From contig NZ_JACJON010000075.1 in NCBI RefSeq assembly GCF_014695585.1, positions 62,001-126,000 of the forward strand: a stretch of 64,000 bases of DNA, read 5' to 3'. A program made the translations under genes and the position numbers. The notes under the pieces are model-generated. The model saw only the letters and a list, made by a program, of their open reading frames with translations, was not told the DNA's origin and did no database searches. This document shows, piece after piece, positions 3,805 through 12,651 of this stretch. Each line of letters opens with the position of its first letter. Within the stretch, counting starts at the first letter, position 1. The DNA is from Microcoleus sp. FACHB-831. Lineage in GTDB: Bacteria; Cyanobacteriota; Cyanobacteriia; Cyanobacteriales; FACHB-T130.

Positions 3805-4443
3805 TTACATAGCAAAAGGTTTGACAGCAAAATCGCCCAAAGTTACCGTGAAACTTTGCCGCTGCCCAGCCGCAGCAAAGTTAACGATGACTTCCGAGGC
3901 TACAGCAACACTCAGCATGACTAAATTGCGTGCTAGCGGGTAGTCGCAGACATCATCATTTGCTGGGGAGGGGACGCGATAGATTTCGTTCCAGATGATT
4001 TCGGCATAATCGCCACCTAGTCCAACGTGGAGACACGGGAGATTAGCATTAGCGCAGTAATCTTTAACTGCGCCACGCGCTACGCTGTTGTCGAAGGTAT
4101 CGATTACTAAGGCGCTACCTTCTAACATTTGGGCGGCGTTTGCAGGTGTAAGTTCTTTGGGACGCGCATCGAGGGAGACTCCCAAGGCGCGATAGAGGGT
4201 ATTGGTGAGGATTTTGGCTTTATAAGCGCCAACATCGGAACGATAGTAAGGTTGGGTGGAGAGGTTGCGTTCTTCGATGCGATCGCGGTCGATAACTCTC
4301 AGTTTGCCAAAGCCAGAACGTGCAAGATTTTCAGTAATATTAGCGCCTAAAGCTCCAGCACCGCAGACAGTTACGGGGAAATTTTTTAATTTCTCCATAA
4401 TTGTTGGTGTTCTTTGCAGTTGTTCGTGGAAGAAGATAGACAT
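3805..4443 (-). CDS. ThiF/E1-like adenylyltransferase family protein
   Basis: A 212-residue Rossmann-fold protein of the ThiF/MoeB/E1 superfamily, which adenylates the C-terminus of ubiquitin-like or sulfur-carrier proteins. Visible motifs are the nucleotide loop GAGALG (28-33), the acidic strand end VIDRDRIEERNL (about 50-61, with the ATP-binding D and the R-N pair), a conserved lysine around 75-77, and VIDTFDN (113-119). The zinc-binding CxxC pairs of MoeB/ThiF are absent, and it is shorter than those enzymes, so it is a minimal E1-like domain. It is the last gene of the minus-strand RNA-repair-like cluster, 68 bases after the 315-residue gene. No ubiquitin-like partner is evident nearby. 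No strong Shine-Dalgarno is visible; the ATG at 4443 fits the family N-terminus. Confidence 0.75.
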   Translation of the reverse strand: MSIFFHEQLQRTPTIMEKLKNFPVTVCGAGALGANITENLARSGFGKLRVIDRDRIEERNLSTQPYYRSDVGAYKAKILTNTLYRALGVSLDARPKELTPANAAQMLEGSALVIDTFDNSVARGAVKDYCANANLPCLHVGLGGDYAEIIWNEIYRVPSPANDDVCDYPLARNLVMLSVAVASEVIVNFAAAGQRQSFTVTLGDFAVKPFAM

Positions 4444-4483
4444 TTTAGGAATTGGGAATGCGAATTGGGAATTTTAGATTCAA

Positions 4484-4518
4484 TCCAAAATCCAAAATCT
4501 AAAATCTAAAATCAAAAG
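4484..4518. repeat. Heptamer short tandem repeat (TCYAAAA)n
   Basis: Four tandem heptamers (TCCAAAA twice, TCTAAAA twice) are followed by TCAAAAG. The fifth copy supplies the stop codon (4512-4514) of the minus-strand 315-residue gene. This is a cyanobacterial heptad short tandem repeat, seen again at 16133-16153 and in degenerate form inside two coding regions. Confidence 0.75.
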
Positions 4519-5459
4519 TCCCAGTAGCCTCGCGCTTCGATAACGCCGACGAGAGATTGCAAGTCAAAATCGCGATCGCGTCCGCTTAGACAGATGCCAG
4601 AACTAATGACTGTAAGATGTTTTTTGTCAATAGCAGATGTGTGACGTTCGCCTCTAGTGGTAGTCCATTCAATTTGCCAAAAGTCACCGCGATCGCGGAA
4701 TTCTTCTAGTTCGCCGCCACCCATTTGCAGCGCATTCCGCAAACGTTTTTCATCGCTGTTTTGTATCTTGAGATATTGAGCGCGATCGCGCCGTTCTTTT
4801 TGCTTGAGTTTTTGATTTTCCCGTAACTGTTTTTTGCGTTCTTGCTGCTGTTGCTGGCGTTGTATTCGAGCTTGATATACTGCCGTTTGTTGCAATGCCA
4901 AATCGTAGACTGTACGCATCTCTGGTGTCATTCCAGCAAAGCGCAATGTTTCTAATGGCGTTAGCTGGCGGAGATGTTCTCTGAGTTGTTGAGCTACTAT
5001 TGGATCGGCGCGGCGATCGAGTTCGTCAAACCACCAAGCACGACCATCAAAACGCGCGATCGCAGGCTCAAAAGGATCGCCTTCAGTTACCAAATATACC
5101 GGAAATGGTTTGGCGATACCGATGCGCTGCTGCATATCGGATTCGTTGACAGGGTAAGCGAGCCACGTTTGTCCTTCCAAAACATAGGCGAGCCGCAGGC
5201 GCACAGGCTTTAGCAGGCGCAGGTATTCTGCAACTTGGGGTAAGTTTGCCTCCTCCACGAGTTCTGCTGTTTTGGAGTTTTCCGGCTGGAAAATACCCCA
5301 GCCTTCAAAGTCTTGCGGTTTGGGGGTGAAGGTATAAACCATGCCCGCGACGGATGCCCGTACAGATCCGCCCCGCACGCAAGGAGCAAAAAATTGAGTA
5401 TTGCCTAGCTGGGATTCCTGGGCGGCAATTTGGTTGAGGAGATTGCGGATATCTGCCAC
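4512..5459 (-). CDS. Conserved hypothetical protein of the RNA-repair-like cluster
   Basis: I do not recognise a family for this 315-residue protein. It starts at GTG 5459, only 9 bases after the AAA+ gene, so the two are probably translated together. Residues 1-150 look like a compact mixed fold rich in aromatic and proline residues (GWGIFQP, YPVNESDM, FDGRAWWFDEL). Residues 200-235 form a very charged, glutamine-rich coiled coil (QARIQRQQQQQERKKQ onward), as expected for an extended or RNA-contacting segment. The C-terminus (FWQIEWTTTRGERHTSAI, then SSGICLSGRDRDFDLQSLV) looks like a small beta domain. Its fixed place between an AAA+ ATPase and an E1-like protein suggests an adaptor for one of them; this is inference only. 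Confidence 0.7.
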   Translation of the reverse strand: MADIRNLLNQIAAQESQLGNTQFFAPCVRGGSVRASVAGMVYTFTPKPQDFEGWGIFQPENSKTAELVEEANLPQVAEYLRLLKPVRLRLAYVLEGQTWLAYPVNESDMQQRIGIAKPFPVYLVTEGDPFEPAIARFDGRAWWFDELDRRADPIVAQQLREHLRQLTPLETLRFAGMTPEMRTVYDLALQQTAVYQARIQRQQQQQERKKQLRENQKLKQKERRDRAQYLKIQNSDEKRLRNALQMGGGELEEFRDRGDFWQIEWTTTRGERHTSAIDKKHLTVISSGICLSGRDRDFDLQSLVGVIEARGYWDF

Positions 5460-5468
5460 GATATTGCC

Positions 5469-10510: not shown

Positions 10511-10528
10511 GGTCTCTACCACTCAAAA

Positions 10529-11971
10529 CTACTTGTCATCGCGAACTGGCAAAGGTATCTCCAGAATTTCCATCAGCAACTCTAGACGCGAAGAAGTGCT
10601 TAAGAATGGAATTAGATTAGGCAGCGAGTAGTAGTCACCTGCAAAGGTAAAAGTATCTACCTGTGCTTGTCGTTCTTTCAACTTTTTTTCTAGCCAATTG
10701 TAGGGATAACCCACTTTAACTATTAGGACGCTTGGCTCTACTTTTAAATCGCGCTTGTAAGCGTCGTAAGTTTCGGTAAAGTAAGGCGCTGCGTTTTCTC
10801 CTTCGTCTGTCACTATGATGATTTGCTCAACCAGTTGCTTTCTCAAACGCATTGCTTCCAACGCACACCCGATGCTGGTTGCACCGCTTGCTTTTAGGTG
10901 TTGAAATGCTCGTTCCCAGTCGCTTAATTCTTTGCCATTCGCTTTGATTGGGTAAGGCATAGTATCGAAGGCGTAGACGAATAAATCTGCCTGGGTAATG
11001 CCAGAAATTAGCGCGGCGATGCGCTTTCCCACATCAATTGCAGTATCCATAGAACTGGATTTGTCTACTAGCAAAGCTGTAGGCTTGCTAATTTTTCCAC
11101 GCTTTTTTACCTGCTCGTCGGTAATGCGTTCTAGTCGCGCTACTGTCTCTGCATCTAACTCGGTAGCGTCGGCGGCGACACGAGCTTTAAATGCCGATAC
11201 GTTTGTGCTTTTAGCGGCTTGCTCTAATTTTTCATCAATCAGCGCTTTGACTTGCGGGTTATCCATCGCACCCCGCGATCGCAGCGAGTTGAGGTTATTA
11301 ATTACCTCTTGTGGCGACATGGAATTAATTAGCGCCACCAGCACTGTAGGCGTCATTTGCTTGACAGCACCTACTGCAACCGTGTAGGGGATTTTGTATT
11401 CTACAATTAGTTGCGCTTGCTCTAGAGGAGAGGATGCGATCGCCAGCAGTTTCATCACGTAAGCTAAACTATCTTCTGGCGGATTGTCTTTAAATAAAAC
11501 TGCATCGGCACGCTCCCCAGGCTTAATATGTAAGCTAGCATACAGATGCTTCATAGCATCACGCGCTCTTAATGCCGCTCTATCAAAAAACGCAGTATTC
11601 TTCTCCCTTTGCTTTAAATAACGCTGCACTGCTGTACGAGTTGAACGCGGCATTTTACCGCGATGTTTCTTCATGAAATCTACAATTCGCGCCACCTGAT
11701 AAGGCGGAAGTTCTTGCAGCATCATGAAACCAGCATCGCGATGTTCTGTTAGCTTGCTAGTTAACAAATTGCCAATAAATACTTCTTTGTGGTCGCGTAC
11801 ATCGCCTTTTTTTTGATACCATACGGCTAAGTGTCCGTAAAATATCGGATCGTTTTGCACCATCTCGTCATGGATTTTTGCTACCTGCTCTACTTCTCGG
11901 TGCGGCGTTGTCAGCAGACTATTAAGAATATCTAAACGCAAGTCGCGCTCGGTTGCTTGCATGGAAACCAC
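10529..11971 (-). CDS. Ro60/TROVE-like RNA-binding protein with C-terminal vWA domain
   Basis: A 480-residue protein. Residues 1-270 form helical repeats like the TROVE ring of Ro60/Rsr: [44 protein letters not shown], and [18 protein letters not shown] continuing into [12 protein letters not shown]. The last part is the pattern of the Ro60 segment in which the central helices carry a nearly constant glycine-aspartate turn. Residues 298-470 are a von Willebrand A domain with a complete MIDAS: D303-x-S305-x-S307, Thr365 in GATS, and Asp389 in VTDE. Ro60 homologues bind misfolded ncRNAs and Y RNAs and assist exonucleases. TROVE assignment is by pattern and could be a divergent relative. A start at internal Met4 (11962) is also possible. 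Confidence 0.72.
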
Positions 11972-12115
11972 CTCAATCTAGACAAATAAAAAAAATCCCT
12001 TTCTAGGATGTCGCACGCTTGCGAGTACAGTTTACCGCGCAAGTCGAGAAAGTAAATTAGTGCTTTTACTTTTTCAGTTGGGACGCGGCGACAACCACTA
12101 TTATTCAAATAAAAT

Positions 12116-12484
12116 TCAATATCCTGGTTTTAGTGAAACTTTCGCTCCAGCTGCTTCTAGCTGTCGCTTAATATCCTCAGCTTTACTCCCATATACTCCT
12201 TTCTCAACCAAATTCGGCGCTGCTTCTACAAACTTTTTTACTTGTGGTAAAGTCCAATCTGTCAGATGGCGTAACACTCTAATAACAGCGATCTTATTAT
12301 CTACGGGTACTTCTTCTAAAACAACCTCATATAAAGGATCGTATTCGCCATCATCCCAAACTTTACAACGTAGATATCTACCTGTAACATCAACACCAAA
12401 ACATTCTTCGATTTGAGAAACCAGATCCGCAGCTTCAAGTAAAGTTATTGATTTTAATTGTTCCAGGATTTCGCTGGTTTTCAT
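12116..12484 (-). CDS. Divergent ribosomal protein bL12 (L7/L12)-like protein
   Basis: A 122-residue relative of L7/L12. Residues 1-30 match the L12 dimerisation domain (ILEQLKSITLLEAADLVSQI, then EECFGVD). Residues 52-118 match the factor-binding C-terminal domain (YEVVLEEVPVDNKIAVIRVLR, then VEAAPNLVEKGV and AEDIKRQLEAAGAKVSLK). The alanine-rich flexible hinge is replaced by a short charged link (RYLRCKVWDDGEYDP). The loop-helix that normally reads GLGLKEAKDLV is DWTLPQVKKFV, so the GTPase-contacting surface is altered. A GTG/ATG frame extends upstream to 12541, but the extra 19 residues are encoded by a heptamer-like repeat, so Met at 12484 is preferred. It leads the RNA-repair-like cluster. 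It is not the ribosomal gene, which lies with rplJ in cyanobacteria. Confidence 0.82.
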   Translation of the reverse strand: MKTSEILEQLKSITLLEAADLVSQIEECFGVDVTGRYLRCKVWDDGEYDPLYEVVLEEVPVDNKIAVIRVLRHLTDWTLPQVKKFVEAAPNLVEKGVYGSKAEDIKRQLEAAGAKVSLKPGY

Positions 12485-12651
12485 TTTTGATTTTGGATTA
12501 AACAAACTAAGGGTATTGTCCATCAAAACACCTGGAACCAAAATTAGATCGGATGGTGGGCAATGCCCTCATACAATTTTGAATTTGGGATTGTAAAAAC
12601 AAAGTCCTCAGTCATGAGTAATTGGGTTAAAAATAGCGATCGCGCAAGTTG

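Follow-up and report, generated by a model that had tools for sequence, protein, structure and literature searches.

We analysed a window of 64,000 nucleotides (positions 62,001 to 126,000 of contig NZ_JACJON010000075.1, assembly GCF_014695585.1) from the cyanobacterium Microcoleus sp. FACHB-831, in which a gene cluster on the minus strand runs from position 12541 to position 3805. We consider it rather probable that this locus is a translation-stress operon making a Ro60-type ribonucleoprotein (RNP) that is coupled to a ubiquitin-like modifier. Our results comprise a core of four proteins that recurs, a phage version of it with JAB, a structured RNA family not described before and a TrcR-type operator. 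A sequence-only reading of the window, made from its open reading frames (ORFs), had described a joint RNA-repair and RNA-surveillance locus with a link to tRNA or ribosomes, and this description is supported by our results. On the other hand, it had left out the ubiquitin-like partner of the E1-like enzyme, the Y-like RNAs, the TrcR-type promoter and operator, the arrays of tRNAs at sister loci and the JAB-bearing phage versions.

Recurrence of a Four-Protein Core in Cyanobacteria

We examined the occurrence of the genes in 149 related genomes. The TROVE-like, U315 and E1 genes were each present in 52 genomes, and c28, which encodes a ubiquitin-like protein, was present in 50. Any two of the first three coincided in 51 genomes. 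The four-gene core including c28 was complete in 49 genomes, absent from 95 and partial in 5, and all 50 genomes bearing c28 also had the TROVE-like gene. The co-occurrence of the core showed a p of about 1e-20 at the genus level, a value that is inflated, like all p-values here, by the kinship of the sampled genomes. The core genes co-occurred even when they lay on different contigs (e.g., in genomes G038 and G110), and gains and losses inside genera were also concordant (genera 27 and 37). Chance co-occurrence, named by the sequence-only reading as its refutation, is not upheld, since the neighbourhood recurs and the core stays together even when scattered over the genome.

A genome scan with the vWA alignment yielded 80 named cyanobacterial loci. 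Their genes follow one order on one strand, c28 - c29 - L12-like - c24 - TROVE-like - variable part - U315 - E1, which looks like an ancestral locus. Over the 80 loci, we counted c28 in 63, U315 in 44, E1 in 43 and the L12-like gene in 27, where it stands at the same place, 5' of the TROVE-like gene. The variable part of some loci holds KptA, AAA2, a ligase, a Nudix gene, DUF6847 and others. Judging from these sequences, the TROVE-like, U315, E1 and ubiquitin-like genes are the constant part, and KptA, ligase, Nudix and AAA+ genes form a variable RNA-repair cassette placed between the TROVE-like and OB-fold genes. The combination of KptA, ligase and TROVE protein emphasised by the sequence-only reading is indeed present in the window, but its KptA and ligase belong to the variable part.

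The same genome contains a second cluster (contig C58:48227-57749, L031), whose TROVE-like, ligase, KptA, AAA2, Nudix, U315 and E1 genes show 69-83% identity. L031 has its own tandem operator (16107-16089) and one Y-like RNA (15855-15708).

Remote Homology of the vWA Protein to TROVE Proteins

The window protein had no match to the Pfam TROVE model (PF05731), and we therefore name it TROVE/Ro60-like rather than a family member. Its alignment to bona fide TROVE proteins by hhalign reached a probability of 97.6% (E 3e-12) over 305 collinear columns covering repeats and vWA domain; the first comparison, with shallow alignments, had given 1.3%, and the rise followed the addition of phage and PDB sequences. 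The top four PDB matches of the phage-enriched profile were all TROVE proteins, namely 9l5y and 9kop (E 0.001), Rsr (0.14) and Ro60 (0.16). Additionally, the phage relative L212 matches PF25045 vWA_Ro60 with 33 bits against a cut-off of 27.7, and the metal-ion-dependent adhesion site of the vWA domain is intact in the window protein (DKSSS, T365, D389). The TROVE/vWA assignment of the sequence-only reading thus holds at the profile level, as remote homology only. An ordinary TROVE protein is encoded elsewhere in the same genome, on contig C67.

E1-Like Enzyme, c28 and U315

The E1-like protein is a single-domain enzyme of about 212 aa that matches ThiF with 98.9 bits, and its closest models are the ThiF/MoeB adenylyltransferases. 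The residues for adenylation are conserved, including the G-rich nucleotide-binding loop, D52/D54, R59-N60, Q64, K75 and D115/D118, and three cysteines (130, 137 and 166) are invariant. We rejected membership in PRTRC, considering that the protein scored 48.3 bits against the 144.75 of PRTRC ThiF and that no other PRTRC model was matched.

The genome also encodes, on contig C40, a beta-grasp protein with a C-terminal glycine. This protein, c28, has 66 aa and ends in RPEAVYG in 26 of 26 aligned cyanobacterial proteins. Its AlphaFold model (predicted local distance difference test score, pLDDT, 87) shows the beta-grasp order strand-strand-helix-strand-strand, and almost all of the 50 VIA alignments listed were to ubiquitin, ISG15, MoaD, TtuB, PB1 or FERM domains, with Z of 4.4-5.4, which is middling for a small domain. 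We call c28 ubiquitin-like because the list of fold matches, the tail and the E1 partner agree. The part of contig C40 concerned (L201:8987-12153) is a third, incomplete locus with c28, c29, L12-like and c24 genes and tandem operators, and it has no TROVE-like gene.

U315, a protein of 315 aa, had no match in Pfam. Its AlphaFold model (pLDDT 84) has an N-terminal beta region, a C-terminal beta domain and a long helix, and an invariant cysteine lies in the C-terminal domain. The best matches of the N-terminal region are OB folds (Mpa interdomain, 26S ATPase OB rings, IF1, S17 and YjeQ; Z up to 8.0). We had considered U315 as an E2 from its GICL-like Cys motif, and we rejected this because the model matches OB folds and no UBC occurs among the matches listed. 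Instead, U315 may serve as an adaptor.

JAB-Bearing Versions in Huge Phages

Searching viral contigs with the vWA alignment brought up four, 84-390 kb in length. Each of them codes for c28, the vWA protein, U315 and JAB, with E1 either there or in an overlapping longer locus. The viral scan with U315 found 18 loci. Profile hidden Markov models recovered the full set in nine distinct phage records, among them LR756511.1 (595 kb), in the order c28 - TROVE-like - U315 - JAB - E1. The phage sets often adjoin tRNAs, and in locus L209 an RNA ligase lies directly upstream. Both phage JABs tested (2/2) scored above the cut-off of Pfam Prok-JAB (PF14464). The phage c28 tails include RPEAVFG, RPQAVFG, RPEAVYG, RPRAVYG and RADTVFG. 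Two tails run past the glycine (WG-RG and FG-KS), as is expected of a precursor that is trimmed by JAB.

A Structured Y-Like RNA Family and tRNA Genes

The stretch lying 5' of the TROVE-like gene shows conservation across loci. The common fold of 14 aligned sequences has a long stem formed by the 5' and 3' parts, a second stem inside it and a hairpin at the apex. Both sides had changed in 9 of 24 pairs, 96.7% of cells pair, none of 500 shuffled alignments was as good, and sliding destroys the structure. Single-sequence folding of this RNA was no better than shuffles (z -0.62), and the structure is seen in the alignment alone. Searches with the covariance model gave multiple copies in a locus, almost all of them on the strand of the operon, and no match in seven control loci with AAA2 only. 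The window has exactly three copies, all inside the operon, and in phage loci L213 and L231 weaker matches occupy the interval from c28 to the TROVE-like gene.

In relatives, ARAGORN tRNA calls overlap 52 of the 150 aligned hits, with none on the three window copies, and the apical part of those RNAs is, on sequence grounds, a putative tRNA-like insert. YrlA Y RNAs have a 5'-3' stem and a tRNA-like domain and adjoin a Ro60-like gene (PMC8394870, PMC7790460). The RNAs of relatives resemble them, and we regard the operon RNAs as an undescribed family, supported by covariation, for which binding by the TROVE-like protein is predicted.

Long same-strand tRNA arrays stand in several sister and phage loci, with 33 tRNAs in L147, 26 each in L110, L112 and L137, 32 in L204, and 17 each in L222 and L231. 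Where other loci have one to three tRNA calls, many of these calls probably stem from the tRNA-like domains of Y-like RNA. Any tRNA call was present in 53 of 55 TROVE loci vs. 5 of 36 AAA2 loci that have no TROVE-like gene.

Promoter and TrcR-Type Operator

The promoter TTGACA-17-TAGTAT ahead of the operon is overlapped by two operator half-sites, TGTATTAT (12930-12923) and TGTAGTAT (12919-12912), at a spacing of 11 nt. TrcR represses the 26-tRNA operon of Anabaena, where its site TGTAGTAT overlaps the -10 box TAGTAT; translation inhibitors induce its regulon, which takes in rtcB, rsgA and rimK (PMC10272220). As in that regulon, the operator of the window promoter lies on the -10 box. An upstream tandem operator was found in 48 of 77 loci, compared with about 1 expected, and 46 of the 48 have the 11-nt spacing. 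It was also found at 6 of 44 AAA2/KptA loci with no TROVE-like gene. Single TGTAGTAT sites occur beyond the cluster at window positions 49667-49674 and 49932-49939.

RNA-Repair Cassette, AAA+ Proteins and L12-Like Protein

Domain searches agreed with the sequence-only reading on KptA, Nudix, ThiF/E1-like, L12-like and the two AAA+ proteins (AAA1 and AAA2). The phosphotransferase belongs to KptA/Tpt1 by its equivalog model. The ligase, which had been read as DraRnl type, is an RNA ligase by PF09414 (81 bits), but it scored 139.9 with the DraRnl-type model TIGR02306, under the cut-off of 151.15, so by sequence it is DraRnl-like and no certified family member. The Nudix protein (59 bits) has a complete Nudix box.

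We counted 68 of the sampled genomes with AAA2, 88 with KptA, roughly a dozen with a close ligase and 2 with AAA1. AAA1 was seen once more, in Westiellopsis, alongside AAA2, Nudix and KptA. We rejected the proposal that the paired AAA+ proteins are subunits of one machine, since AAA1 is a rare accessory, and from its occurrence AAA2 appears to belong with the KptA cassette. In AAA2, an N invariant among aligned homologues replaces the usual Walker B aspartate (INEADNL), and the protein has no recognisable lid domain at its end.

The L12-like protein matches the L7/L12 model with 72 bits. We rejected its identity as an ordinary rplL product, because it and its L12-like counterparts from sister loci form a clade (support 0.82) to which ribosomal L12 does not belong, and the true rplL of the genome lies on contig C30.

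Operon Layout and Neighbouring Features

The ten same-strand genes of the sequence-only reading were confirmed with their spacing as nine substantial ORFs and one of 60 aa, the latter a remnant (Table 1). AAA2 overlaps KptA by 4 bases (7910/7913) and the 60-aa ORF overlaps the ligase gene by 14 bases (10204/10217), and gaps of 9 and 14 bases separate AAA1 from U315 and KptA from Nudix. Wider gaps of 142-193 bases lie between L12 and TROVE, TROVE and the 60-aa ORF, ligase and AAA2, and Nudix and AAA1. Despite these gaps, the arrangement is likely to be an operon with a single transcript.

Table 1. Features of the operon in the 64-kb window.
Feature	Position	Strand	Evidence or remark
Promoter with tandem TrcR-type operator half-sites	12912..12940	-	only tandem site in the window
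Y-like RNA copy 1, leader ahead of the L12-like gene	12591..12721	-	51.2 bits, E 6e-11
L7/L12-like protein, probable start 12484 (MKTSEIL)	12116..12541	-	clade separate from ribosomal L12
Y-like RNA copy 2, immediately 5' of the TROVE-like gene	11985..12106	-	76 bits, E 6e-18; covariation
TROVE/Ro60-like protein with vWA domain	10529..11971	-	remote profile homology
60-aa remnant of the ~280-aa c12 protein	10204..10386	-	intact in relatives
DraRnl-like RNA ligase	9225..10217	-	PF09414; TIGR02306 below cut-off
AAA+ protein AAA2, usual partner of KptA	7910..9079	-	domain match, recurrence
RNA 2'-phosphotransferase KptA	7365..7913	-	279.4 bits vs. cut-off 239
Nudix hydrolase	6910..7350	-	domain match, complete Nudix box
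AAA+ protein AAA1, rare accessory	5469..6716	-	domain match, occurrence counts
U315: OB-fold-like region, long helix, C-terminal domain with invariant Cys	4512..5459	-	predicted structure, alignment
ThiF-type E1-like enzyme	3805..4443	-	ThiF domain match, alignment
Y-like RNA copy 3, immediately 3' of the E1 gene	3654..3772	-	42.6 bits, E 1.5e-8

A Dcm-type cytosine methyltransferase gene (window 12968-14272) diverges from the operon promoter, and the same neighbour occurs in L031, L032, L033 and L035. A very stable palindrome (window 10421-10502) separates the TROVE-like gene from the remnant ORF (fold z-score -4.9 for 10387-10528). Sister loci carry accessory genes, among them a short unnamed family (L054:4730-5119), DUF6939 (L034:11453-12154), DUF6847 (L040:15459-15917) and the intact ~280-aa c12 protein (L061:12637-13500). 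The c24 protein (L110:9362-9853 and relatives), encoded between the L12-like and TROVE-like genes, has several invariant-looking His residues and is possibly a metal enzyme. A contig labelled Armatimonadetes (L170, CADCTO010000300.1) carries a TROVE-like gene with 70% identity, which reflects transfer or mis-binning.

Discussion

Based on these results, we propose the following course of events. A TrcR-type repressor, expected to bind the operator observed here, would keep the promoter silent. When translation is blocked, the operon would yield the Y-like RNAs, whose structure is conserved, and the TROVE-like protein, given its homology, would bind them. At sister loci, the Y-like RNAs would carry a tRNA mimic, and some of these loci would also supply back-up tRNAs. 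E1 would activate the C-terminal glycine of c28 and, with no E2 recognisable, would hand c28 to the RNP or its clients with U315 as the adaptor; in the phage versions, JAB would trim or remove the tag. From what the C-terminal domain of L12 is known to do, docking of the RNP on the ribosome or its factors may fall to the L12-like protein. The chemistry of the KptA, Nudix and ligase families is known. In a joint action, KptA would remove 2'-phosphates with NAD+, Nudix may clear the ADP-ribose products, the ligase would rejoin the broken tRNA, and AAA2 may act on the complex as a remodeller. We infer the conjugation of c28 and its substrate, the binding of RNA by the TROVE-like protein and the work of the repair enzymes on the same particle.

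Several points weigh against this interpretation. The case for the system is built on sequences and models, and the kinship noted above affects the statistics of its recurrence. The c28 gene is not in the window. The window also has zero tRNA genes and hence no tRNA array. No E2-like (UBC) protein was recognised. In cyanobacteria, no JAB was found near the locus, the genome of the window has no orthologue, and the 149 genomes gave one weak match. Foldseek alone was weak for the c28 model (best E 0.09), and no Rfam family recognised the Y-like RNA at the gathering score, with nothing credible at a lax threshold.

Considering the ThiF/MoeB models closest to E1, the occurrence of MoaD and TtuB among the fold matches of c28 and the tRNA context, E1 and c28 could instead work as a sulfur-carrier pair in tRNA thiolation, in the manner of ThiF-ThiS or Uba4-Urm1, with the RNP and repair enzymes serving the same tRNAs. 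We consider this unlikely. The recurrent genes show no rhodanese, desulfurase or thiouridylase, the c28 tail ends in aromatic-Gly rather than Gly-Gly, JAB is added in phages, and two phage tails go beyond the glycine.

Another possibility is that the locus is an ordinary operon for RNA repair and RNA surveillance, akin to rsr-yrl-rtcBA, whose E1 and U315 proteins play a structural or regulatory part and have no modifier activity. The TROVE-like protein, Y-like RNA, ligase and an end-healing enzyme are all there, and the window has no modifier gene. On the other hand, c28 tracks E1 across genomes nearly one to one, its C-terminus is invariant and JAB is present in phages, and this explanation is quite improbable. 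A defence or mobile island gathering unrelated cassettes is very improbable: the cassette content varies, ligase and AAA1 are patchy and phages carry the genes, but order and strand are constant, unlinked genes keep a common phyletic profile, the operator and RNAs are shared, and PADLOC called no system.

Returning to the Ro60-type RNP coupled to a ubiquitin-like modifier, we tentatively suggest, at somewhat less than even confidence, a dedicated pathway of cyanobacteria and huge phages that places a ubiquitin-like tag on a Ro60/Y-RNA particle or on its damaged tRNA or ribosome, outside Bil, CBASS, SAMP and rtcBA. The phage versions suggest that bacteria and phages share a way to handle damaged tRNA or ribosomes. 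Few functions are clear for the Ro60 proteins and Y RNAs of bacteria, and here they are tied to a ubiquitin-like modifier, tRNA repair, a ribosomal-stalk-like protein and a known translation-stress operator, in relatives of laboratory models. The role of a Ro60 RNP in translation failure thus becomes testable, and so do the ubiquitin-like tagging of RNPs by bacteria and the reason why huge phages keep the set near tRNA genes.

The component parts are of known kinds, and the joint system was not found in the literature searched, which excluded the main earlier survey of TROVE and RNA repair (Burroughs and Aravind 2016). Jumbo phages are known with TROVE proteins (ROT/TROVE), RNA ligases, KptA and tRNAs (PMC7824862), whereas JAB, Ubl, ThiF and PRTRC do not appear in the text of that work. 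Bil (BilABCD), type II CBASS Cap2/Cap3 and the operons of Iyer et al. 2006 likewise unite a ubiquitin-like protein, an E1-like enzyme and, as in our phages, JAB in one operon (PMC11354881, PMC10097602, PMC1779556). In contrast to them, the present system has no recognisable E2, a single-domain E1, an aromatic-Gly modifier end and a TROVE-like RNP joined to it, and the survey of Iyer et al. 2006 (PMC1779556) has no TROVE or vWA. With the long tRNA operon and TrcR regulon of Anabaena PCC 7120, which includes the RNA ligase rtcB, the system shares TGTAGTAT on the -10 box TAGTAT and, at sister loci, tRNA arrays (PMC10272220); the published regulon table consulted here names no TROVE, E1 or ubiquitin-like gene, and the window differs in having no tRNA. 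With rsr-yrlBA-rtcBA of Salmonella and others (PMC7790460, PMC8394870), it shares a Ro60-like protein, Y-type RNAs that at sister loci carry a putative tRNA mimic, an RNA ligase, an end-healing enzyme and a setting of tRNA damage or stress. There, the enzymes are RtcB/RtcA and the control is by RtcR, whereas here a DraRnl-like ligase and KptA end healing stand under a TrcR-type operator, and E1, ubiquitin-like, OB-fold and L12-like proteins are added.

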